Shown here: positions 2,067-13,549 of the stretch, piece by piece
Layout of the letters: each line of letters starts with the position of its first letter
How positions within the stretch are numbered: position 1 is the first letter of the stretch
NCBI GenBank assembly: GCA_028278625.1
Contig: JANQDY010000061.1
Location: 1 to 14,055 of the forward strand
Source: Thermodesulfobacteriota bacterium
Lineage (GTDB): Bacteria > Desulfobacterota > DSM-4660 > Desulfatiglandales > Desulfatiglandaceae
DNA: 14,055 bases
Direction: 5' to 3'
Position numbers and translations under genes: made by a program
The notes under the pieces: generated by a model
The model's input: only the letters and a program-made list of their open reading frames with translations
Database searches by the model: none
What the model was told of the DNA's origin: nothing

Positions 2067-5000
2067 ATGAGTTTGCATTTTTCAGCACGACCAATTGTCC
2101 TATCCAGCTTTGTCGTCTTGCTTCTTTTCTCCCTGGGCATTTGTATCGCAAACGCAGATTCAGATACGGCTCAAATGACCCGATTGACAAATGAACTGCT
2201 GGGAAAAGCAACGCCTGACGCATGTTTTTTCGGTATTGGGGACCCTGCCAACGAATATGATCCCGGCTTGGTGCTCCCTTGTCCCGGAACCGGCGAGGCC
2301 AAAGTCAATCAGGCCTATGTGTGGGGCCTGACCAAAGCTGGGGACGATTTGTGGTTTGGTACTGCCGCCAATGTCTTGTGTTTCGTGGAAGGCAGCTATC
2401 TTCAATACACGAACCCTCAAATAAACGACTGTTGGGTCTGTGAATTCGAGGAAAGCCAGTTTTTCAGTCCTGATCCGCCTCCGGACCCTAGAATCGGAGA
2501 CTGGAGGCCGCCGCGCATTTTCGTTTACGAAACCCAAACAAACAGCTTGATTGAGAAAACCAATGATATTCCATACCCCCACAACCTACGCCTCAAAACC
2601 ACCTTAGGCATCCGCTCCGCGGGTTCATCCGGAGATATGGTTTTTCTGGGAGGACCGGGGCTGAGCGGGGGGATCAACATCTTCGCTTTTGACGTGGTGT
2701 CCGGCAGTTTCTTGAATTCAACCAACCTGCCGGAATACAGCAATATTAGGAAGTGGCTGGAAGTAGACGGCTCGCTTTACACGGCTGTGGGAAAAACGGC
2801 GGGCGGTGGTGCCGTCTTGCGCTGGACGGGAAATGAGTTGGACATTTTCAAGTTTGACGTGGTGGGGGAGTTGGACGGCCAAGGTGCCGAACTTGCGTAC
2901 CACGAGGGCAGATTATTTGCTTCCACGTGGCCGGGGATCGGCCGGCGCACCCGCGGTACACCACCTGCGGCCGGCATCTGGATGAGTCCCGAGCTTACAT
3001 CCCAAGGGCTCTCTACCGAAAACAAGCACGATTGGGCCAAGATCTGGAGTGCGTCCGATTATGATCCCGACCTGGTTACGGCTGCCACCTACGGCGGGGG
3101 GTCACTCTCCTCTTTTGACGGTTACCTTTATTGGGGAACCATGCATGTGCCCCTGGTTGCTTACTTAGCCCATAACTATGTTTACGGAGAACCGCCGGAC
3201 ATCCAGACAGCATTAATGACATTCCTGGGGACCCACAGGGCGATCAGCATTTTCAGGGGCAAAAACCTTGCCACCAGTCCCATAGTGGAACTGGTCTATG
3301 GCGATCCATTCCTGCCCAAATACTCACAGCCCCGGGGAAGCACTGAAACCGAATCCGGGTATTGGGAGATGGTTCCCAATAAGATGGGCGCCTATCCCCT
3401 TCATGGTCCTTCCGGTTTCGGGAACTTCTTCAATAATTATACCTGGACCATGGGTGTCTATAAGGACCAATTGTATGTGGGCACCATGGACTGGAGTTAC
3501 ATCCTCAGTACCATGCTGAACCCTCTTCTGGAGCCCTACCTGTCCGTTATTCCAAAGAACCTCCTTCAGATTGCAAACCATTTCTATGGCGCCGATCTAT
3601 TCCGATTCGCCAATGCTGATTCAAGGGCGGTACCGGAGAGTCAGTCCGGTGTCGGGAACTACACCAATTACGGCATTCGAACAATGGTTGCAGACGAAGA
3701 TGCTATCTATCTCGGAACCGCCAATCCCATGAACCTTCTGACGAATACTGGCGATGACAAGCCGGAAGGCGGGTGGGAGTTGCGAAGCCTGACGGGCCTG
3801 CCGGGTCCTGTACCTTCTCCCGCCGCCTCGGAAAGCCACCCGGCCATGGTCTATAATCCTGAAAGGAATCAGTATTTCGTTGTCTACACCAAGCTCGACA
3901 AAACAGGCAAGAAGCTATACGGCCGTTTTGTGGATCCCGACGGAACACCGGCGGGAAACGAATTCCCCATAGATGACAACGGTGCTTACGACGCCTTTCC
4001 GTCGGTTGCCTTCGACAGTGACCGGCATAGATACCTGGTCATATGGACCAGGATCGGTCAGACGGGTGAATCACTGGGGGCCAGTATTTTTGGCAGGCTA
4101 TTTAAGGCTGACGGCCAGCCCTATGCCGCTGCATTTCAGTTATCTACTGAGAGCGCACCCGGCTCCATGGCGGCACGGTTTCTACCAACCACCGCCTACG
4201 GCAAGGTGAACGGTGGACGAAGTGATGCCAATGGGTTTATGGTGGTTTGGACGGATTTCCAAATCCTGGCCCAGGGAGAACTGGCTCCCAATATCTCTCT
4301 GGTTGGACAAAATGTTCTTTGGAACGGGTCACTGGCAGGCGAGAATTTCCCGATCACCAATCTGGATGGTGATGTTCCGGCTGCCACTTTGTTTCCTTCC
4401 ATTGCTTATGACAACAGTCAAAACCGGTACTTTGTTGCCTGGGCGAACATGGGAAGTGATGTGTCAGGCTCTTCCGCACAGATCATGGACCAGTTGCTGA
4501 ACGATCGGGCTGTTTTAAGCCTTTTCGCGTCGGCGAACGGGGATGCGGGAAGTCGTATATTGGGACGCTTCGTGGATCCAAACGGAGAATGCTCCGCTTC
4601 AATTTCGATCTCCTCGCATGATTCCGCTTATGTGGCAAGCTATGATTCTTTTCCGTCTGTGGCCTTTGGAAAGGTAAAAGCGGGTGCCGCTGAAACGGAG
4701 GGCTTTCTAACGGCCTGGTCCAGTATTCGTGCCAAAGATGAGACGACGCCCCTGGATATTGATATTTTTGGCCAGATTCTCAAGAATGACGGAGCCCTCA
4801 TCGGTGGAAACTTCTCCATTTCCCGTGAAGGTCATGCGACTCCGGTCGCCCCGCTGTTCCCAAAACTGGCGGCCGGGTGGACCCCCGCGACAGGAGAAAC
4901 CTTCCTGGCGGTTTGGCCGGATACCTCCGATGCCCTTTCCCGCGAAAGTGAAGACATGGACTTGGTCAATATTTTCGGTCAGTACCTTCAGCCGGACGGG

Positions 5001-8000
5001 TCCTATTCCGGTGAGAATTTTATCATTTCAAGTGCGGCCCTCCTGCAATCTAAACCCGCCTTGGCATATAACGGCGCTGACAACAATTTCCTTGCAGGAT
5101 ACACCAAAAACAACCCGGAAACCTTTACCATTGACGTGACGTTCTCACCTGTAAAATCTCAAAAGGCTTTCTACGTTGATATCCGCAATGGAAATGATGC
5201 CAACGACGGTAGCATTGAAAGACCATGGAAAACCCTGCATCATGCCATCTCCAGGATTAATGCGGGACCGCCCTGTGCTTATACGCTCTATGTGGCCGGC
5301 GGTAGTTACAGCGTTAATAACGGGGAAGCGGATAGTGAACTGATCCTTCTAAAGGACCATGTAACCATTGTGGGTGAAGCCGACAGCCGATCTGTCATCG
5401 AAGGCAAAGGCGCTTTGAACTGGCCTGTGGGAATTAAGGTCTCAGCATCTCACACCTGTCTTATAAACCTTCACATCACCGGTTTTGCCCATGGAGACGG
5501 CATCGGTGTTGACCTGATTGCCGGAACCAACAATACCGTTCAAAACTGCCGGGTGTCCGATAACGATAACGGGATATCCGTCTGGCAGTCCAAGAACTGC
5601 ACCGTAAAGGAATGTAAAATTGACAACAACAACCTGGACGGCATCAGCTTCACTCAAAGTACCGGCGGCCTGATTACCCAAAACACCGTTCATGGCCACT
5701 ATGATATCAAGAACAGCGATGGGATTATCGTACAGGCCTGCAATCCGGAAATCAGCCGAAACACTCTTTACGGCAACCGCTTCAACATATCCCTTCAGGC
5801 AGACAAAGGGGAAACCACCTCACCGACCATCAAGAACAACCTGGTTTATATGGCCACCAGGAGTTCGGGAAAGGTGGAGTACGGCATCCTCATGGGCGGT
5901 AAGGGTACGACGGGCCCCATCATTTATCACAATACCATCGACGGAGGGCTGTACGACGGCATTTACATGGATGGTACCGGAAGCACTCCCCACATCAAAT
6001 ACAATATCATAACCAACTTCGGACAGGTAGGAATCAGAAACCTGAAGGGCTTGGGCAGCCCCACCATCGATTACAATGATATCTGGGGCAACGCATCGGG
6101 ACCCTATGACGGCTGTGGGCCCGGAGACAACGACATTTATAAGGACCCTCAATACGGCAGCCACACCCTCCTGGATTCATCGCCTTGCATCAATGCCATT
6201 TCGCTCGCTTCTGGTGATCCCATTACCATCGACAAAAACGGCGATCCAAGGCCCTACGGTGCCGGCTATGACATGGGCTGCTACGAAAAAACCAACCTGC
6301 CACTCGTATCAACGGACGATGTATCTTCCATCAGCGCCACTTCAGCCACCAGCGGCGGGAACGTCACCTCAGCGGGGGGAGAGACATCCATCAAGATCAA
6401 GGCTAGAGGCGTTTGCTGGAGCACCGGCCCTGATCCCACGATCAACGACAGCCACACCAGCGACGGCACCGGCCTCGGGTCTTTTATCAGCAACATCACG
6501 GGCCTTTCCCCCGACACTACCTATCACGTGAGGGCATACGCCACCAACAGCAATAACCTGACCGGGTACGGCAGCGATCTTACCTTCACAACAACGGTTG
6601 CCCCGCCCACCGTCACCTCCTTTAATCCCACGTCCGGGGTTCCCGACACCTCTGTTACCATCAAAGGCACAGGCTTTATCAACACTTCAAAAGTGAAATT
6701 CGGCGGTACGCCCGCCAAAAGCTTCCTGGTGGACTCGGCAACACAAATCACCGCGGTTGTGGGAGATGGCGCGACCGGCAAGGTAAGCGTTACAACGCCG
6801 GGAGGGACGGCCGAAAGCCATCAGAAATTCACCTTTCACACTGTCACTGCCGGAGCCTACCACGTCAACGTCTCTACGGGAGATGACTTAAACGACGGCA
6901 GCGCTGCCCGGCCATGGAAGACCCTGCACCACGCCATTTCTCAAATAAATGGGGGTGAAACTGGCAATTATGCCCTGATTGTGGGACCGGGCACATATGG
7001 GGTATCGAGCAAAGGTAACCGTGCCAAGGGCGAAGCCGATGATCAACTGATTCTCTCACAAAGCAATGTGACCATCATCGGGGATAGCGACAATCCTCCC
7101 CTTGTCGATGGCAACAATGCTACAAACTGGCCAAAAGGCGTTGAAGTTACCGGCTCAAACGATGTCATTGAAAACCTTTGGTTCACCGGATTTTCAGACA
7201 CCAAGGAAGAAGGGGTTCGCATAACCATGGGAAACGGGAACCAAATCCTTCAATGCCGGGTCTATGGAAACAATTCCGGCATCAGGGTGATGGAGGCCAC
7301 TGAGACGACCATTCGGAATTGTGAGGTATTTGTGAACACCACAAACGGCATCGATCTCATAAAAAGCCCGGAAACGGATGTGGTTGACAACAAGATCTAC
7401 GATAATACCGAGTCCGGCATTCGCGCCGAAGGAAGTACCGAAATCAGCCGAAACAGCATTTTCGACAACGATTTCGGCATATTGGTGGAAGCTTTAACTG
7501 GCAACTCGGCATCCCCCGTTATAATGAACAACGTGATCTACCGAACAGAGACGGGAACCATGAGATACGGCATTTACACCCGGGCGGAAAATGGCAGTCA
7601 ATCAAATGCCGAAATCTATCACAATACCGTGGACGGAGGCACCAAAGATGGCATTACAACGGAAAAGGACGGCAGCAGCTCCTCCAAGCCCCTGGTCAAG
7701 TACAACATCATCACCAACTTCGGCCAGTACGGCATTCAGAATGTCGGCGCGAATCCTGCCATTGACTACAACGATGTCTGGAACAATAGCGCAGGCAATT
7801 ACAGGGGATGTCAGAAAGGGACCCACGACATCAACAAGGATCCCAAGTTCGCCAGCTACTCCCTCTGGAAATACTCTCCTTGTATCAACATTATTCCAAC
7901 CACTTCAGGGGATCCGGTTACCGTCGATTATCTCGGATTTGCCAGGCCCCGTCCGGATCAGGCCCCCAAGGATATGGGGGCCTATGAATATGTGGGAAGC

Positions 8001-8813
8001 GTCAAGGACCCTTACGACATGCCAGGGGGCACTGGACAGGTCACGGATTACCGGATCTTTACGGTCCCTTTCTACATGACCGGTGCCGAGATGCTATCCG
8101 CCATGGAAAAGGTGCTGGGAACCTATAACAACACCACCTGGCGGGGCTTCACCACCGTTGATGGGGGCTATGTGGAGTTTAGCGACAAGGCCTTTCAGAC
8201 GCTTTCCATTATTCCAGGCATGGGGTTCTGGATCGTCACACTATTAACAGATACCATCCCCTTTAAAGGAGGCATCGCCCCTGACGGCGTTAACTATGAG
8301 CTGACCCTCAGACGGGGCTGGCACCTGGTAGGCCTCCCCTGGGTCAGTCAGGACATCGACCTTGGGAACATTCTGGTCACCGACGGTTTAAATACCCATA
8401 CCATTACCAGCGCCCAAAACAACCTGACTCAAAGGGTCTTCTGGGATTTCACCGGAAACGGCCCTTACAAAGGGTATGAAAAGCGGGACGTGAGCTCGTA
8501 TCTGCTTAAATGCGGTACCGGTTACTTCCTAGAGGTCCTTTCAAACCAAGGGGTCACCCTCATCATCCCCTGGAAAAATGATCGATCCCGGTCTGTTGAA
8601 AGGGGATCCACCGGTGATGAGGACGAACCGCCGCCGCCGCCGGGAGTGGTTGATCAGGGATTTCAGTGCCCCAAGATTCATGATGGTCGTCTCGAAGACG
8701 TCAACTTTCCCTCAACTGCCGATTGTGACTACACATATCAAGAGAGGTTGACCATTGGAAGCGGCGTTACTGTTCAAGAAGGCGCTGTTTTGAGAATCAA
8801 GCCAGTGCCATGA
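2067..8813 (+). CDS. Giant secreted multidomain protein with duplicated parallel beta-helix modules
   Basis: 2248 residues. A Sec signal peptide (hydrophobic core about 10-28) has a likely cleavage after AxA near residue 30 (IANA/DSD). Residues ~31-585 are an unrecognised extracytoplasmic region with propeller-like segments (LWFGTA, LYVGTM, IYLGTA). Residues ~588-1030 hold seven degenerate repeats of the type FPSVAFD...RYLVIWT...IFGR..K.DGQP, as in a seven-bladed propeller. Residues 1033-1407 form a DUF1565/NosD-like right-handed beta-helix starting FYVDIRNGNDANDGS. Residues 1411-1510 are FnIII-like (GLSPDTTYHVRAYATN) and 1512-1590 IPT/TIG-like. Residues 1597-1974 are a second beta-helix, clearly a copy of the first. 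Residues ~1983-2174 are a surface module with GMGFWIV and GWHLVGLPW. An acidic-proline linker (DEDEPPPPPG) and a short tail follow. The start is fixed by GGGAGG at 2055-2060. No catalytic motif, sorting signal or C-terminal anchor was recognised. A surface adhesin or polysaccharide-binding role is inference. Confidence 0.85.
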   Translation: MSLHFSARPIVLSSFVVLLLFSLGICIANADSDTAQMTRLTNELLGKATPDACFFGIGDPANEYDPGLVLPCPGTGEAKVNQAYVWGLTKAGDDLWFGTAANVLCFVEGSYLQYTNPQINDCWVCEFEESQFFSPDPPPDPRIGDWRPPRIFVYETQTNSLIEKTNDIPYPHNLRLKTTLGIRSAGSSGDMVFLGGPGLSGGINIFAFDVVSGSFLNSTNLPEYSNIRKWLEVDGSLYTAVGKTAGGGAVLRWTGNELDIFKFDVVGELDGQGAELAYHEGRLFASTWPGIGRRTRGTPPAAGIWMSPELTSQGLSTENKHDWAKIWSASDYDPDLVTAATYGGGSLSSFDGYLYWGTMHVPLVAYLAHNYVYGEPPDIQTALMTFLGTHRAISIFRGKNLATSPIVELVYGDPFLPKYSQPRGSTETESGYWEMVPNKMGAYPLHGPSGFGNFFNNYTWTMGVYKDQLYVGTMDWSYILSTMLNPLLEPYLSVIPKNLLQIANHFYGADLFRFANADSRAVPESQSGVGNYTNYGIRTMVADEDAIYLGTANPMNLLTNTGDDKPEGGWELRSLTGLPGPVPSPAASESHPAMVYNPERNQYFVVYTKLDKTGKKLYGRFVDPDGTPAGNEFPIDDNGAYDAFPSVAFDSDRHRYLVIWTRIGQTGESLGASIFGRLFKADGQPYAAAFQLSTESAPGSMAARFLPTTAYGKVNGGRSDANGFMVVWTDFQILAQGELAPNISLVGQNVLWNGSLAGENFPITNLDGDVPAATLFPSIAYDNSQNRYFVAWANMGSDVSGSSAQIMDQLLNDRAVLSLFASANGDAGSRILGRFVDPNGECSASISISSHDSAYVASYDSFPSVAFGKVKAGAAETEGFLTAWSSIRAKDETTPLDIDIFGQILKNDGALIGGNFSISREGHATPVAPLFPKLAAGWTPATGETFLAVWPDTSDALSRESEDMDLVNIFGQYLQPDGSYSGENFIISSAALLQSKPALAYNGADNNFLAGYTKNNPETFTIDVTFSPVKSQKAFYVDIRNGNDANDGSIERPWKTLHHAISRINAGPPCAYTLYVAGGSYSVNNGEADSELILLKDHVTIVGEADSRSVIEGKGALNWPVGIKVSASHTCLINLHITGFAHGDGIGVDLIAGTNNTVQNCRVSDNDNGISVWQSKNCTVKECKIDNNNLDGISFTQSTGGLITQNTVHGHYDIKNSDGIIVQACNPEISRNTLYGNRFNISLQADKGETTSPTIKNNLVYMATRSSGKVEYGILMGGKGTTGPIIYHNTIDGGLYDGIYMDGTGSTPHIKYNIITNFGQVGIRNLKGLGSPTIDYNDIWGNASGPYDGCGPGDNDIYKDPQYGSHTLLDSSPCINAISLASGDPITIDKNGDPRPYGAGYDMGCYEKTNLPLVSTDDVSSISATSATSGGNVTSAGGETSIKIKARGVCWSTGPDPTINDSHTSDGTGLGSFISNITGLSPDTTYHVRAYATNSNNLTGYGSDLTFTTTVAPPTVTSFNPTSGVPDTSVTIKGTGFINTSKVKFGGTPAKSFLVDSATQITAVVGDGATGKVSVTTPGGTAESHQKFTFHTVTAGAYHVNVSTGDDLNDGSAARPWKTLHHAISQINGGETGNYALIVGPGTYGVSSKGNRAKGEADDQLILSQSNVTIIGDSDNPPLVDGNNATNWPKGVEVTGSNDVIENLWFTGFSDTKEEGVRITMGNGNQILQCRVYGNNSGIRVMEATETTIRNCEVFVNTTNGIDLIKSPETDVVDNKIYDNTESGIRAEGSTEISRNSIFDNDFGILVEALTGNSASPVIMNNVIYRTETGTMRYGIYTRAENGSQSNAEIYHNTVDGGTKDGITTEKDGSSSSKPLVKYNIITNFGQYGIQNVGANPAIDYNDVWNNSAGNYRGCQKGTHDINKDPKFASYSLWKYSPCINIIPTTSGDPVTVDYLGFARPRPDQAPKDMGAYEYVGSVKDPYDMPGGTGQVTDYRIFTVPFYMTGAEMLSAMEKVLGTYNNTTWRGFTTVDGGYVEFSDKAFQTLSIIPGMGFWIVTLLTDTIPFKGGIAPDGVNYELTLRRGWHLVGLPWVSQDIDLGNILVTDGLNTHTITSAQNNLTQRVFWDFTGNGPYKGYEKRDVSSYLLKCGTGYFLEVLSNQGVTLIIPWKNDRSRSVERGSTGDEDEPPPPPGVVDQGFQCPKIHDGRLEDVNFPSTADCDYTYQERLTIGSGVTVQEGAVLRIKPVP
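3828..5156 (+). repeat. Seven propeller-like repeats within the giant protein
   Basis: Repeat starts are marked by HPAMVYN, FPSVAFD, LPTTAYG, FPSIAYD, FPSVAFG, FPKLAAG and KPALAYN. Most are followed by an aromatic strand (YFVVYT, YLVIWT, FMVVWT, YFVAWA, FLTAWS, FLAVWP, FLAGYT). Several then carry a GR/GQ..-DG turn (YGRFVDPDG, FGRLFKADG, FGQILKNDG, FGQYLQPDG). Six are complete or nearly so and the seventh is short. Seven units fit a closed seven-bladed propeller. The fold assignment is inference from repeat number and pattern. Confidence 0.65.
5163..6287 (+). repeat. Beta-helix module, copy 1 (residues 1033-1407)
   Basis: This copy opens with a DUF1565-like motif (NDANDGSIERPWKTLHHAIS). Short beta-helix coils rich in N, G and I follow (NCTVKECKIDNNNLDGIS, for example). 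It closes with IIYHNTIDGG, KYNIITNFGQ, IDYNDIWGN and DMGCYE. Copy 2 at 6855-7988 matches it along its whole length with nearly the same size (375 and 378 residues), so the pair arose by internal duplication. Confidence 0.85.
6855..7988 (+). repeat. Beta-helix module, copy 2 (residues 1597-1974)
   Basis: It is the partner of copy 1. It shares RPWKTLHHAIS, GEAD..LIL, EISRN, IYHNTVDGG, KYNIITNFGQ, IDYNDVWNN and MGAYE in the same order. The first and last blocks also remain alike at DNA level: the PWKTLHHAI codons near 5223 and 6912, and the YNIITNFG codons near 6000 and 7702. The middle coils have diverged, which points to an old rather than recent duplication. Confidence 0.85.
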
Positions 8814-9178: not shown

Positions 9179-10016
9179 TTACGCATACAGGTTTTCTATC
9201 CATCGTATGGCTTCCGTGTCAGGAACTTTTCCCAAATATGTCTGGGTGGTCGAAAGGTTCTCGTGCCGTAAAATCACTTTTGAGACAATCTCTATCGGGA
9301 CACCTGATCGGGAAGCATATGTCGCCGCATGTCTCCTTAAATCGTGGGGCCGCAACCTTATTCCGACCTTTTCGCCGGCCTTTCTGACCATCGTTCTGGC
9401 GGATTCATAACATATGGGGAATATTCTTTGATCAGGTTGGATGTTATTTTCCCTGATGTACGCCTTAAGTCTGTCCGCCACTTTCTGAGTGATAAACACG
9501 TGCTCCCGCATTTTTCCACTTTTTGGATTTTTAAGCGTCAGCTTCCTGTCTTGTACGTCGGCGGGGGTGAGCTTTAGGACTTCACCGATTCGCATGCCGC
9601 CACGAGCCATGAGCTCCAGGATCAGACGGTTCCGTTTCTTTCCTGTTCTGAAGATAATTTCATCGATAACATCCTTATCGATAATCTCCCATGAAGGAAT
9701 TGATTTCGCCCTGAACATTTTTCGCAAGATGGGTGTGGCGCAGGGGTTTTGCAGAGCTTGGTCGATATTGCTGATGATGAAGTTGAAGAAAGCTGAAAGG
9801 TGAGCGTAGCGAGTTCGTTTTGTTTGTTGTTTGGTGCCTTCGGTAATTCTGTTCAAAAACTCCAGGATCTGGTCCGATGTGACGTTATCAATGGTTTCAC
9901 CACCTAATTCCTCGCAGAATTTGGTCAATACCGCCTGATAAGCTATAAGCGTATTTTTTTTGTGAATTGGACCTGTGGTATTCCATCCAGAGTTTTGCCG
10001 CTTGTTTGATTTTCTT
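9179..10016 (-). pseudogene. Tyrosine recombinase/integrase (XerC/D-like), start codon and frame disrupted
   Basis: The intact frame (9179-9928) gives 249 residues with the full catalytic set of the phage-integrase family, numbered from the TTG at 9928: R113 (GGMRIGEVL), a beta-hairpin lysine near 136-139, H195 and R198 (PHDLRRHAAT), H222 (LRHENLS) and Y231 (TQTYLG). The N-terminal SAM-like core-binding domain continues upstream in another frame (IKQAAKLWMEYHRSNSQK). It joins the main frame (NTLIAYQAVLTKF) if one A is removed from an A8 tract (T8 on the plus strand, 9954-9961). A strong GGAGGG ribosome site (10024-10029) sits seven bases before an AAG codon at 10016-10014, where an ATG would be expected. 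The reconstructed protein is about 278 residues, normal for the family. It could be decayed, misread at a homopolymer, or made by slippage on A8. It is divergent from the DUF6653-type gene. Confidence 0.8.
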
Positions 10017-10132: not shown

Positions 10133-10637
10133 ATGACGTTTGAAAAGAGGGTAGCGGCCTTTTTTGCCATGAGCGATGAAGTCTGGATGCGGCATGCCAA
10201 GCCATGGAGTGTGGACCAGGTATGCCGCCCTACCGATTCTTGTCTTTTCAATTTGGAGCAGGACATGGATCGGATGGTGGTCGCTCCTACCGATTACGCT
10301 GTCGGTAATCTGGATATGGATCAATCCAAGAGTTTTCAAAAAGCCGGCTTCAACGAATAACTGGGCGTCCATGGCGGTTTTGGGTGAGCGGGTTTGGTTG
10401 AATAGAAAAGCAATCGCACTCCCTCAGCATTTCGACCCCGTCATCAGAGTATTAAATATGCTCTCGAGCATCGGGGCACTCGTCTGTATTTTAGGGCTCG
10501 TTTTGCAGTCGTTCTGGATGACAATTTTCGGAATCGCGGTTCTGATTCTTTCAAAAAGCTGGTTTCTTGATCGGATGGTATGGTTGTACCAAGAAATAAG
10601 AGACACAGCTGTAGGATCATTGCAGACAACGTCTTAG
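10133..10637 (+). pseudogene. DUF6653-family membrane protein, frameshifted by loss of a TG dinucleotide
   Basis: The protein is split over two frames. Frame one starts at ATG 10133, with AAGGA at 10121-10125 as ribosome site, and gives MTFEKRVAAFFAMSDEVWMRHAKPWSV. The family sequence then resumes one base back, at 10212, as WTRYAALPILVFSIWSRTW, and runs to the TAG at 10635. Joined, this is about 168 residues with the family hallmarks: AMSDEVW.RHA.PWS, two hydrophobic pairs, PASTNNWASMAVLGERVWLNR, and a closing WFLDRMVWLY. The break falls in AGTGTGGACC, where AGTGTGTGGACC would restore the frame, so a two-base slip in a TG repeat is the simplest cause. The function of DUF6653 proteins is not known to me; several membrane segments suggest an integral membrane protein. 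The open frame on the other strand (10088-10372) is a shadow. Confidence 0.75.
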
Positions 10638-10714: not shown

Positions 10715-10743
10715 TTGACATTTATATAACGATCCGATATATA
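10715..10743 (+). promoter_or_regulatory. Sigma-70 promoter of the padR operon
   Basis: A perfect -35 box, TTGACA (10715-10720), is followed by a 17-base spacer and TATATA (10738-10743, 4/6 to consensus). It sits 32 bases upstream of the padR start, with a ribosome site AGAGG near 10764-10768. It is the clearest promoter in the window. Confidence 0.75.
10724..10742 (+). promoter_or_regulatory. Candidate PadR operator palindrome
   Basis: ATATAACGATCCGATATAT is an imperfect palindrome in which ATATA.CG and CG.TATAT are symmetric about position 10733. It fills the spacer and overlaps the -10 box, so a bound dimer would block RNA polymerase. PadR-family repressors commonly bind AT-rich dyads in their own promoters (known for the family). 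That this one does so is inference. Confidence 0.55.
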
Positions 10744-10775: not shown

Positions 10776-11360
10776 ATGGACATTAAAACAATGGTCTTGG
10801 GTTTTCTCATGCGGGGCAGCATGACCGGTTATGAGTTAAAGAAGAGATTCTCCCTTTCATTCTCCTTCTTTTCAGCCCTCAGTTACGGCTCCATCTATCC
10901 GGCCCTTAAAAGGCTGGAACAGGAAGGCTTGATAACTTTGAAAGTAGAAATTCAGGACGGATCGCCCAATCGCAAGGTGTACACGATAACCAATTCAGGC
11001 AGGAAGTTTTTCCTGGAGAATCTCCGTACCCCTTTCACCCTGGAGCGGCAGAAAAGTGCATTCCTTTCAAGGCTTTTTTTCTTTTCCCACCTGACTCGGG
11101 AAGAACGCCTGGCAACGGCAAGTCGATATCTCCAATCGATCAAGGAAATGCAGAAAACCCTCGTGGCAGTGGAGCCGGAAATCAGAGAACGGGCGGATGA
11201 ATTTCAGTTTCTCTCTTATCAGTTCGGGATCCGGTTTTTTGACGACCTTACCCGGAATGTAAAAGCGGTTTTGCAGGAACTGGAGGGGAAAAATCCTGAA
11301 GACAAGATCCCGTCACCCCAAAAGGGAACAATTGCGAAAGGGAAAGAAGGTGCCCCATGA
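10776..11360 (+). CDS. PadR-family transcriptional regulator
   Basis: 194 residues. Positions ~5-80 are a PadR winged helix-turn-helix: MVLGFLMRGSMTGYELKKRF, then the signature YGSIYPALKRLEQEGLI (37-53) and wing RKVYTITNSGRKF (66-78). Positions ~88-170 form a helical C-terminal region of the virulence-activator alpha (Vir_act_alpha_C) type, used for dimerisation. The last 25 residues are a basic, disordered tail. The ATG at 10776 has AGAGG upstream. Its stop overlaps the next gene's start as ATGA (11357-11360), so the two are translationally coupled. PadR proteins are usually repressors released by small hydrophobic or phenolic ligands. The palindrome in the promoter suggests self-regulation of the whole operon. 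The inducer is unknown and may be related to the ligand of the SCP2 domains downstream. Confidence 0.92.
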   Translation: MDIKTMVLGFLMRGSMTGYELKKRFSLSFSFFSALSYGSIYPALKRLEQEGLITLKVEIQDGSPNRKVYTITNSGRKFFLENLRTPFTLERQKSAFLSRLFFFSHLTREERLATASRYLQSIKEMQKTLVAVEPEIRERADEFQFLSYQFGIRFFDDLTRNVKAVLQELEGKNPEDKIPSPQKGTIAKGKEGAP

Positions 11361-13549
11361 AACAGTTAGGGAAAACCAGGCGAATTCTCCTTTATGCCGG
11401 TCCGTTCCCCGCGCTGGCCTTTTTTAAGATATGGGCCGCATACAGCGCTGGGTCAGGCTCAGGTTCTGGAAGTCTTTCGGTTGTTGCGTTTTTTATGCTG
11501 GTTTTTTGCGCAATCGTGATTGTTGTCGCCAAACGATGGGACAAACCCTCTTATTTTGACTGGACGATTGGCGGCTATTTTGCCCTGATCTGGCTGTCAT
11601 TGCTCGTCTGGCCGGATTCTGCCGGCAGGGTTTTGTTCAGGTATTCGGTGACCGGCATTTATGGGTGTCTATTTGCGGCAGCCTTTTTTCCACCCGTTTT
11701 TGGCACGGAACCCTTCACCTGTCACTACGCGAAGAAATATGCCCCGGAAGCGGTTTGGAACAATCCTGTTTTTTTACGCATCAACCGGATCATGACTTAC
11801 GCCTGGGCCGGAATTTTTGCTTTCTCTGCCCTTTTGAGTCTTTATCCATCAGTGATAACCCGAGCCGTTGTTCCTGTTGGAATCATTCTATGTGTCGGTC
11901 TGCCTTTCAATCTTCGTTTTCCCGACTTCTATTTGAAGCGCCTCGGGCTTCCGTCTCTCAAGGAACAGAAAGAAGCTGCTCTGGAGGAAAACGCGGCCAA
12001 GAGAACCCGGTCCCTGCCTGAACGTCTTCCGGTGACTGCCTGGCAAGCGGTATCCTCCATGCCGGATGTGTTCAGGCCGGAGGCCGCCAGGGGCCTTGAG
12101 GCCGTCATTGGCTTTGAAGTGTCAGGCTCGGAAAACTTTAGGACTTATCTGCATATACAAGATGGCACGTGTGCCCTGGAAGATCGGTTATCAGGTGAAC
12201 CGGACTTGATGATCCATACGCCTTCAGAGGTTTGGCTGGCGATTGCGCGGAAAGAGTTGAGCGGACAGCAAGCCTTTCTGTCCGGCGCGTACACAGCGGA
12301 TGGCAACCTGGGGCTTCTGATGAAGATGAAAGACCTCTTTGCCGGGGAGGCCCTTTCATCAAAGACGGGAAATTCCGGCACGCAAGAAACGATGCTGACT
12401 ATTTCGGCAAAGTCACACGATCCTGAAAACACATTTGTTATCCCAAACCAAAAAAGAAAGGAAAATACCATGAAAGTACTTGCCCTTAATTCAAGTGCAC
12501 GATCAAAAGGCGAGAGTAAGACCGATTTGATGCTTAATCATCTTGTTAATGGAATGAGAGAGGCAGGAGCCGATGTCGAGACTGTCAATCTACGAGAAAA
12601 GATTATAAAAAATTGTGTGGGATGTTTTACGTGTATGACTAAAAACCCGGGGAAATGTGTACTCAGAGATGACATGACGCGAGATCTATTCCCTAAATGG
12701 CTGGAATCCGATCTGGTTATTTACGCCACACCTCTGTTCCATCACACTGTCAATGCGACCATGAAAACCTTCATAGAGAGAACTTGGCCTATTTGTGAAC
12801 CCTTTCTTGTGGAAAAGGAAGGACGCTGGTTTCACCCTCTTCGAAGAAAGCACCCTGGAGTTGTGGTTCTTTCCGTATGCGGTTTCCCGGCAATGTCCGC
12901 CTTTGGTGGTTTGACTCACTATGTGAAATTTCTTTATGAAGCGCATGGAAAAGGGGTGCTATGGGCCGAAATCTATCGACCCGGCGCCGAATTTATGGCG
13001 CGTCAAAACGATAAACAGAAAGATATACTCGACGCCACCATCCAGGCAGGCAGGGAACTCGTGGTTGATCACAGGGTTTCTGCAGAAACATTGGCACGTA
13101 TAGAACAGCCGTTGACTGATAAAGTTTCTGATTTTGCAGAAATTGCGAATTGCATGTGGAAGACTTGCATTTCTGAAGGGATAACTTTAAAGAAATTTGC
13201 AGGCGAGGGCATGATTCCCAGGCCCGACTCCATGGAGACCTTTATGGCGATCTTCCCCCTCGGTTTAAAGGCCTTCGCCGCAAACGGTACGAAGGCCATC
13301 CTTCAATTCAATCTCTCGGGGGATGTGCAGGGAGCTTGTCATTTCCACATCGAGAACGGAACGGTCAACACTTTTCAGGGTCCCGCTGAAAGCCCGGACT
13401 TGACAATCGACACGCCTTTTGATGTTTGGATGGATATCATGACCGGAAAAGCGGACGGACAACAAATGTTCATGGCGCAAAAATACAAAGTGCAGGGAGA
13501 ACTGGGTCTTTTGATGCGCATGGGCCAGATTCTTGGCAACAAGGGATGA
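11357..13549 (+). CDS. Membrane-SCP2-Fe-S flavoprotein-SCP2 fusion protein
   Basis: 730 residues. 1-195: about six hydrophobic segments (near 11-30, 41-58, 68-85, 95-115, 146-163, 170-187) with a GSGSGSGS stretch at 32-39. ~200-225: charged linker. ~230-330: SCP2 sterol-carrier-like domain (DGTCALEDRLSGEPDLMIHT, DGNLGLLMKMKDLF). ~331-371: low-complexity linker. 372-~570: flavodoxin-like NADPH-dependent FMN reductase domain of the iron-sulfur flavoprotein type (KVLALNSSARSKGESKTD). C420, C423, C426 and C434 in NCVGCFTCMTKNPGKC give a CX2CX2CX7C cluster motif. ~620-730: second SCP2 domain (HIENGTVNTFQGPAESPDLT, QGELGLLMRMGQIL), similar to the first. Known: Isf-type flavoproteins move electrons through FMN and [4Fe-4S]; SCP2 domains bind lipids in a hydrophobic tunnel. 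Inferred: a membrane-bound reductase for a lipophilic substrate. Residue 372 has its own ribosome site, so an ancestral gene boundary, or a second start, lies there. The ATGA overlap couples it to padR. Confidence 0.8.
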   Translation: MKQLGKTRRILLYAGPFPALAFFKIWAAYSAGSGSGSGSLSVVAFFMLVFCAIVIVVAKRWDKPSYFDWTIGGYFALIWLSLLVWPDSAGRVLFRYSVTGIYGCLFAAAFFPPVFGTEPFTCHYAKKYAPEAVWNNPVFLRINRIMTYAWAGIFAFSALLSLYPSVITRAVVPVGIILCVGLPFNLRFPDFYLKRLGLPSLKEQKEAALEENAAKRTRSLPERLPVTAWQAVSSMPDVFRPEAARGLEAVIGFEVSGSENFRTYLHIQDGTCALEDRLSGEPDLMIHTPSEVWLAIARKELSGQQAFLSGAYTADGNLGLLMKMKDLFAGEALSSKTGNSGTQETMLTISAKSHDPENTFVIPNQKRKENTMKVLALNSSARSKGESKTDLMLNHLVNGMREAGADVETVNLREKIIKNCVGCFTCMTKNPGKCVLRDDMTRDLFPKWLESDLVIYATPLFHHTVNATMKTFIERTWPICEPFLVEKEGRWFHPLRRKHPGVVVLSVCGFPAMSAFGGLTHYVKFLYEAHGKGVLWAEIYRPGAEFMARQNDKQKDILDATIQAGRELVVDHRVSAETLARIEQPLTDKVSDFAEIANCMWKTCISEGITLKKFAGEGMIPRPDSMETFMAIFPLGLKAFAANGTKAILQFNLSGDVQGACHFHIENGTVNTFQGPAESPDLTIDTPFDVWMDIMTGKADGQQMFMAQKYKVQGELGLLMRMGQILGNKG
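12456..12472 (+). promoter_or_regulatory. Internal ribosome site and start codon inside the fusion gene
   Basis: GAAAGGA (12456-12462) lies seven bases before an in-frame ATG at 12470-12472. The codons that follow encode the normal N-terminus of a flavodoxin-like reductase (MKVLALNSSARSKGESKTD). Translation from here would give a soluble 359-residue flavoprotein-SCP2 protein. The 40 residues before it look like translated intergenic sequence. This supports either a recent gene fusion by stop loss or the production of two proteins from one frame. Confidence 0.6.

Follow-up and report, generated by a model that had tools for sequence, protein, structure and literature searches.

PadR-like regulators control genes of detoxification, virulence and drug resistance, according to the part of PMC3506622 available to us. 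Iron-sulfur flavoproteins of the Isf type carry a compact cysteine motif, CX2CX2CX5-7C (available part of PMC3164229), and the flavone reductase FLR is described as a dimer in the accessible portion of its paper. A gene may also contain an internal start in the same frame, as in the case of Cas11b (excerpt of PMC11899642). Here, we analysed a stretch of 14,055 nucleotides (hereafter the window) from a Thermodesulfobacteriota bacterium (contig JANQDY010000061.1, assembly GCA_028278625.1), in which a gene for a PadR-family regulator, padR, overlaps a gene for a 730-residue flavoprotein. The flavoprotein gene seems to have arisen by the joining of two cistrons that remain separate in some relatives: one for a membrane domain (TM) and an SCP2 domain, the other for a flavodoxin-fold domain (FLV) and a second SCP2 domain. 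Judged from the sequences, the stronger finding is that the fused genes appear to have retained the start of the second cistron, and that a candidate PadR operator lies in the padR promoter.

The junction of the two halves holds a predicted second translation start, Met372, preceded by a Shine-Dalgarno (SD)-like sequence (Table 1). Relatives came from a protein search in which 7997 candidates, of 0.55 to 1.75 times the query length, were scored and 235 proteins were found; because of this length range, short stand-alone relatives lie outside the search. Among the best 120 of the 235, the window's own protein included, 117 have Met at residue 372 and three have Val, whose codons were not seen; in locus L012 the junction codon is TTG. 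An AAGGAG-like sequence, stronger than that of the window, occurs at the same place in most of the fused relatives examined, and such sequences are also found at the starts of many stand-alone FLV-SCP2 genes. SD energy was taken as pairing with the tail of the 16S rRNA, and the junction was compared with the other codons of the same gene. The junction mean is -8.7 kcal/mol in 12 fusions of the window type, against -2.9 kcal/mol at other codons, and -9.0 against -3.6 kcal/mol in 12 fusions with a second flavodoxin type. The mean at 71 stand-alone or split gene starts is -9.45 kcal/mol, and one further junction, that of L106, was scored apart at -8.0 kcal/mol. When the other codons are pooled, 381 of 7094 (window type) and 767 of 6893 (second type, 535 of the 767 from L118) score at least as well as their own junction; the junction ranks in the top 5% of codons in 9 of 12 genes of the window type and in 8 of 12 of the second type.

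Codon choice points the same way. Where Lys stands before Glu near the junction, the Lys codon is AAG in 16 of 16 cases (10.1 expected) and the pair reads AAGGAG in 13 of 16 (6.5 expected), the expectations being derived from the codon use of the genes themselves; elsewhere in these genes, AAGGAG encodes 14 of 37 KE pairs. Nine of the 25 fused genes have no KE near the junction and dropped out of this comparison. L057 and L111 have two cistrons with a 4-nt overlap, an arrangement that is likely the precursor of the fused state. As a family, then, the fused genes combine a conserved SD with a start codon in frame, although the SD of the window itself is weak. The second cistron has kept its ribosome-binding site and its start codon, and therefore the gene most likely yields two proteins, a prediction that we consider fairly probable. 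Separately, in L009 (7977-9844) a frameshift breaks the membrane part and leaves the flavodoxin part intact; this fits an independent second cistron but may be an assembly error.

Several points weigh against two products. The junction ranks below the top 5% of codons in the window and L001 (at about 17%) and in L006 (7%), and, among fusions of the second type, in L102 (8%), L105 (6%), L109 (12%) and L118 (100%). In L118 an automatic rule picked a start that has no SD; in both L109 and L118 this rule took a later start codon than the one beside the SD. In the window and L001 the SD (AAAGGA, -4.9 kcal/mol) is only average, as 122 of 699 and 119 of 701 codons, respectively, score as well. One of the 16 KE pairs, that of L094, is not the SD, and the synonymous comparison assumes an independence that relatives do not have; its probabilities overstate the surprise because the rows are related. 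The 730-residue protein could be the sole product, with the SD-like sequence either a remnant from the fusion event or a chance result of encoding a conserved [RK]KE motif in the linker. The weakness of the window's SD agrees with this, as does the frequency of KE before the junction (RKE in 59, GKE in 23 and KKE in 16 of those best 120 proteins), which could reflect a protein motif. We find a sole product unlikely: although the rest of the linker can hardly be aligned, two fused lineages that differ in flavodoxin type have both kept the SD; the purine run is retained even where the residues differ; among synonymous codons, AAG and GAG are preferred; and the start position has TTG in L012 and Val in three proteins.

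The fused state and the separate state both recur. Profiles for TM, the first SCP2 domain (SCP2a), FLV and the second (SCP2b) were built in this analysis from the family. In the same 120 proteins they give the order TM+SCP2+FLV+SCP2 in 52, TM+FLV+SCP2 in 66, and SCP2+FLV+SCP2 with no recognised TM domain in two. Of 208 relatives found by a genome scan, the best 80 were followed as loci, most of them in Deltaproteobacteria/Desulfobacterota records; nine of these loci have fused genes and 71 have FLV-SCP2 as a separate gene in frame, including L077, which is truncated at the start and cannot be assigned, and L007, which lies at a contig edge. A search with the TM profile in 395 genomes of one phylum found the domain in 34, gave loci for 30, and added two fused genes of the window type (L093, L094). 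Twelve fused genes (L096-L103, L105, L108, L109, L118) carry the second flavodoxin type, with a CX2CX2CX5C motif; the SD and ATG are mostly kept at their junction, and no padR match was found in the stretch examined around them. L106 is one further fused gene, cut by its contig. Separate TM and FLV genes are present in L095, L057/L088 and L111, and they are 304-459 nt apart in L112, L114 and L115; in L107 the flavodoxin gene is upstream. L113, L116 and L117 have TM-SCP2 genes with no flavodoxin gene in the short stretch examined, and the TM domain occurs alone in L104, L110, L119 and L120. In L003 (9154-10281) and L080 (9070-10215), a gene with SCP2 and membrane parts in reversed order follows FLV-SCP2; by eye, its membrane part appears akin to the TM domain of the window. 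No described system with this combination was found in the open-access literature, at the level of search listings.

A tree of 87 FLV-SCP2 sequences, made by a quick method, requires six changes of the fused state when L077 and L007 are taken as separate, and starred branches force at least three of these. In this tree the window and L001 group with L003, a stand-alone gene (support 96), rather than with any other fused gene. Between the window and its close relative P0008, TM is 91% and the first SCP2 domain 83% identical; the flavodoxin reaches 61%, the helices behind it 42% and the second SCP2 domain 74%, with 77-87% in its final stretches. P0008 and P0011, in comparison, share 76-80% in every module. 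These uneven identities indicate that the flavodoxin module was replaced in one lineage, either that of the window or that of P0008, with one boundary near the internal start. Since the second flavodoxin type is also found unfused (L107), its fusion was probably an independent event; one ancient fusion for both types is possible.

Upstream of padR there is a promoter-like element, which a generic promoter scan does not report, as its rule needs a T at the end of the second hexamer. The candidate operator is placed behind the -35 hexamer and overlaps the -10; none of 200 shuffles matched the consensus as well as this 15/16 site. The consensus, ATATATCG-N3-CGATATAT, is found at 14/16 or better, behind a TTGACA-like hexamer, in 14 of 17 padR upstream regions, L002 being left out for too little upstream sequence. 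Against a general operator stand the near-identical L067 and L073, which reach only 13/16, and L062, whose promoter lacks the operator (10/16, with 84 of 200 shuffles as good). The consensus was moreover read off the same promoters, and the real test is therefore its specificity. The 1,144,255 bases of the loci contain 23 matches (a few of them overlapping) that reach at least 14/16, of which 22 are at padR promoters. Fourteen whole genomes hold 32 sites with at most two mismatches, against six for the reversed control. With at most one mismatch, 12 sites remain, in 11 genomes; 11 of the 12 are at padR, an assignment made partly from contig coordinates compared by hand. The twelfth (G405; L139 3613-4740, minus strand) precedes a gene for a protein with a 4Fe-4S dicluster domain; an SDR gene comes next. 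This is a possible second regulon member, and a single hint that a ferredoxin belongs to the same PadR response.

In the genome-scan set together with the window, padR is directly upstream of all nine fused genes that have upstream sequence (L006 has none); it is also upstream of the split L095 and of 8 of the 71 separate loci (L067 as a partial match). It is missing upstream of the fused L093 and L094 (1.3-1.5 kb examined), which brings the total to 9 of 11, and from 63 of the 71 separate-gene loci, 9 of these 63 with less than 1 kb of upstream sequence. PadR is therefore not essential to the family.

The 730-residue protein matches SCP2 (PF02036) in two stretches (E 1.1e-27; 96.7 bits against a gathering cut-off of 21.3), FMN_red (PF03358, E 1.3e-14, residues 372-476) and Flavodoxin_2 (E 2.7e-7); the latter two matches are above the gathering scores and the region has a flavodoxin fold. 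PadR scores 65.1 bits for PF03551 against a cut-off of 27. The family profiles place TM at residues 1-200, SCP2a at 217-334, FLV at 372-560, and SCP2b with its leading helices at 575-728. The AlphaFold2 model of the whole protein (pLDDT 76.6, pTM 0.43) shows six long helices within residues 1-195, followed by an α/β unit, a flavodoxin-like unit and a second α/β unit, and pLDDT falls below 50 at residues 331-369 and in the cysteine loop 421-433. The TM domain modelled alone reaches 85.9. Foldseek matched the whole-protein model to azoreductases, and to the sterol carrier protein 8af2 at rank 50. Lys and Arg number 4, 3, 2 and 3 in the inner segments of the membrane domain and 0, 0 and 0 in the outer loops; because of these charges, the topology fits N-in/C-in, with the SCP2 and flavodoxin parts predicted to be cytoplasmic. 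Against the VC0807 and IspZ-like models of NCBIfam/Pfam the TM domain missed the cut-off (16.9 against 65 bits), a faint resemblance, and related open reading frames (ORFs) were also under it (L091, 39 bits, E 6.5e-10; L119, IspA, E 0.0017).

An earlier note on this DNA had claimed this domain order, the anchoring in the membrane, and a coupling to PadR through an ATGA overlap. Pfam, the profiles and the models bear out the order and the anchoring, the overlap is present in the sequence, and the padR upstream of 9 of 11 fused genes, with its conserved candidate operator, upholds the link to PadR. The order is neither unique to this assembly nor split in all relatives, as 52 of the 120 listed proteins have the four modules. 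The note's guess at a function, reduction of a lipophilic substrate, is plausible as a proposal. The apparent fusion of two cistrons with its internal start, the palindrome and the flavodoxin exchange had been overlooked.

Table 1 Features of the padR-flavoprotein locus in the window.
Feature	Position	Strand	Basis or remark
padR promoter-like element, TTGACA (10715-10720), 17 nt, TATATA (10738-10743)	10715..10743	+	sequence
Candidate PadR operator, ATATAACG-ATC-CGATATAT	10724..10742	.	15/16 to ATATATCG-N3-CGATATAT
PadR-family regulator, 194 aa	10776..11360	+	PF03551, E 5.9e-18
Fused flavoprotein gene, 730 aa	11357..13549	+	ORF, Pfam, family profiles; ATGA overlap with padR
Six-helix membrane domain, residues 1-200	11357..11956	+	models, charges; without Pfam match
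First SCP2 domain, residues 217-334	12005..12358	+	Pfam, family profile, model
Internal SD-like AAAGGA, 7 nt before the internal ATG	12457..12462	+	sequence; junction comparison
Internal start codon Met372, predicted second translation start	12470..12472	+	conserved residue
Predicted second product, flavodoxin-SCP2, 359 aa	12470..13549	+	start inferred; counterpart of stand-alone genes of ~360 aa
Flavodoxin-fold domain, ~residues 372-571, C420/C423/C426/C434	12470..13069	+	Pfam, fold, motif
Second SCP2 domain, ~residues 640-728	13274..13540	+	Pfam, family profile, model

The flavodoxin module has the four-cysteine motif C420-X2-C423-X2-C426-X7-C434. CX2CX2CX7C is found in 88 of 88 strong FLV sequences examined; of 15 weaker rows, 14 have CX2CX2CX5C and the remaining one has the X7 form. 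The FLV sequences thus show the compact spacing of Isf, and this part of the earlier note's Isf-type assignment stood. Kinship with Isf was not established, since a sequence search of solved structures matched no chain named iron-sulfur flavoprotein and gave FLR (7d38) first (profile E 1.5e-14, with the cysteine run included, the alignment covering only about the first 105 residues of the flavodoxin part). FLR has a similar cysteine run, and the text of its paper nowhere uses the word 'iron'; the motif therefore need not mean an iron-sulfur (Fe-S) cluster. The closest folds are NAD(P)H:quinone reductases, and the predicted fold is of the quinone-reductase/azoreductase type.

We propose a two-gene unit of a self-regulating PadR repressor and a membrane-tethered FMN oxidoreductase, whose gene is the one most consistently found beside it. 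PadR would sit on the 19-bp palindrome inside its own promoter until released by a ligand, probably hydrophobic, and translation of the flavoprotein would be coupled to padR by ATGA. The flavoprotein gene would have arisen when a cistron for the membrane domain and SCP2 became joined to a flavodoxin-SCP2 cistron. It would give a long product, anchored in the inner membrane and with the catalytic part on the cytoplasmic side, together with a short, soluble flavodoxin-SCP2 product. As quinone-reductase-type flavodoxins generally work as dimers, the anchored and the short forms may associate with each other, although such heteromers seem doubtful. The SCP2 domains would present a lipophilic electron acceptor, quinone or quinone-like/aromatic, to FMN, which would reduce it; we give this lipophilic-substrate reductase function even chances. 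The four-cysteine motif may bind an Fe-S cluster, a prediction that could go either way; ferredoxin would be the electron donor of this cluster. The domain architecture, its recurrence, the linkage to padR, the palindrome and the conservation of the internal start are observed; the substrate class, and the sensing of the same compound by PadR, we infer. The scheme as a whole, a PadR-switched, fused, two-product membrane/soluble FMN oxidoreductase, is slightly favoured. In a bolder form, held only tentatively, at least two lineages would have fused the cistrons and kept the inner start under selection, membrane and soluble lipid reductases would be made in set proportion and co-assembled, and the window lineage would be under a PadR with its own type of operator.

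For the role of the protein, no annotated gene among the neighbourhood proteins examined identifies a substrate, which weakens the scheme. A reductase that detoxifies hydrophobic xenobiotics partitioning into the membrane (quinones, nitro/azo aromatics, flavonoids), induced through PadR, is a serious contender at somewhat less than even chances, and it is compatible with two products. It would agree with the kinds of genes under PadR-like control (PMC3506622, part available), with quinone and azo reductases as the nearest folds and a flavone reductase as the nearest sequence in the Protein Data Bank, and with the near confinement of close operator matches to the padR promoter in the genomes searched. 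Flavodoxin-SCP2 genes are, on the other hand, also common without a nearby padR, which points to a housekeeping role in part of the family. A further reading places the protein in endogenous menaquinone or lipid metabolism, the SCP2 domain presenting a polyprenyl quinone or a precursor to the flavoprotein as in UbiT. An NQO-type fold and a faint resemblance to UbiT (E 0.008, far below cut-off) suit this idea. We think it improbable, since the score for the NCBIfam equivalog model of UbiT falls short (16.5 bits, with a cut-off of 46.9) and the ten annotated neighbourhood proteins, a small sample, include no quinone-biosynthesis gene.

Other genes of the window were also noted. Shortly before padR, a frameshift divides a DUF6653 gene (10133-10634, plus strand), with model positions 1-27 matched in one frame (E 8.7e-6) and 25-160 in another (E 6.2e-44). 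At 2067-8813 (plus strand) is a gene for a 2248-residue, probably secreted protein with right-handed beta-helix/NosD repeats and a TIG domain. Between it and the padR operon is a phage-integrase-type recombinase (9179-9928, minus strand; PF00589, E 5.8e-22), a possible mobile-element remnant.

If the proposal is true, a flavoprotein family that is so far uncharacterised and occurs chiefly in Desulfobacterota and relatives gains a testable mechanism, and one reading frame serves lipid work both at the membrane and in the cytoplasm. Gene prediction gives a single fused protein, and a second product would therefore be missed wherever cistrons fuse in frame. The candidate operator allows the inducer to be sought directly, and the inducer may in turn point to the substrate.

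Compared with known systems, the locus shares single features with each. NAD(P)H:quinone oxidoreductases and FMN azoreductases (4r81, NQO1/NQO2, AzoR) are the nearest folds, with 14-18% identity in the NQO rows; we know of no membrane domain, SCP2 domain or four-cysteine motif in these proteins. The SCP2 domain is common to the window protein, UbiT and other SCP2 proteins such as the sterol carrier 8af2; unlike in these, two copies flank a flavodoxin domain here. With Isf the protein shares a compact cysteine motif on an FMN_red-type domain (PMC3164229, available part). FLR has CX2CX2CX11C in place of the X7 spacing, and the accessible portion of its paper reports neither a TM nor an SCP2 domain, both of which the window protein has. 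As for LmrR, the regulator is upstream of its target with a palindrome in its own promoter; however, the PadR/LmrR motif is ATGT/ACAT, in place of which the window has the palindrome described above (PMC3506622, as far as available). As for Cas11b, a short C-terminal product would come from inside a long frame, which is a prediction here; in contrast to that case, the short product corresponds to a complete protein of two domains, for which other genomes have a gene of its own (PMC11899642, excerpt).
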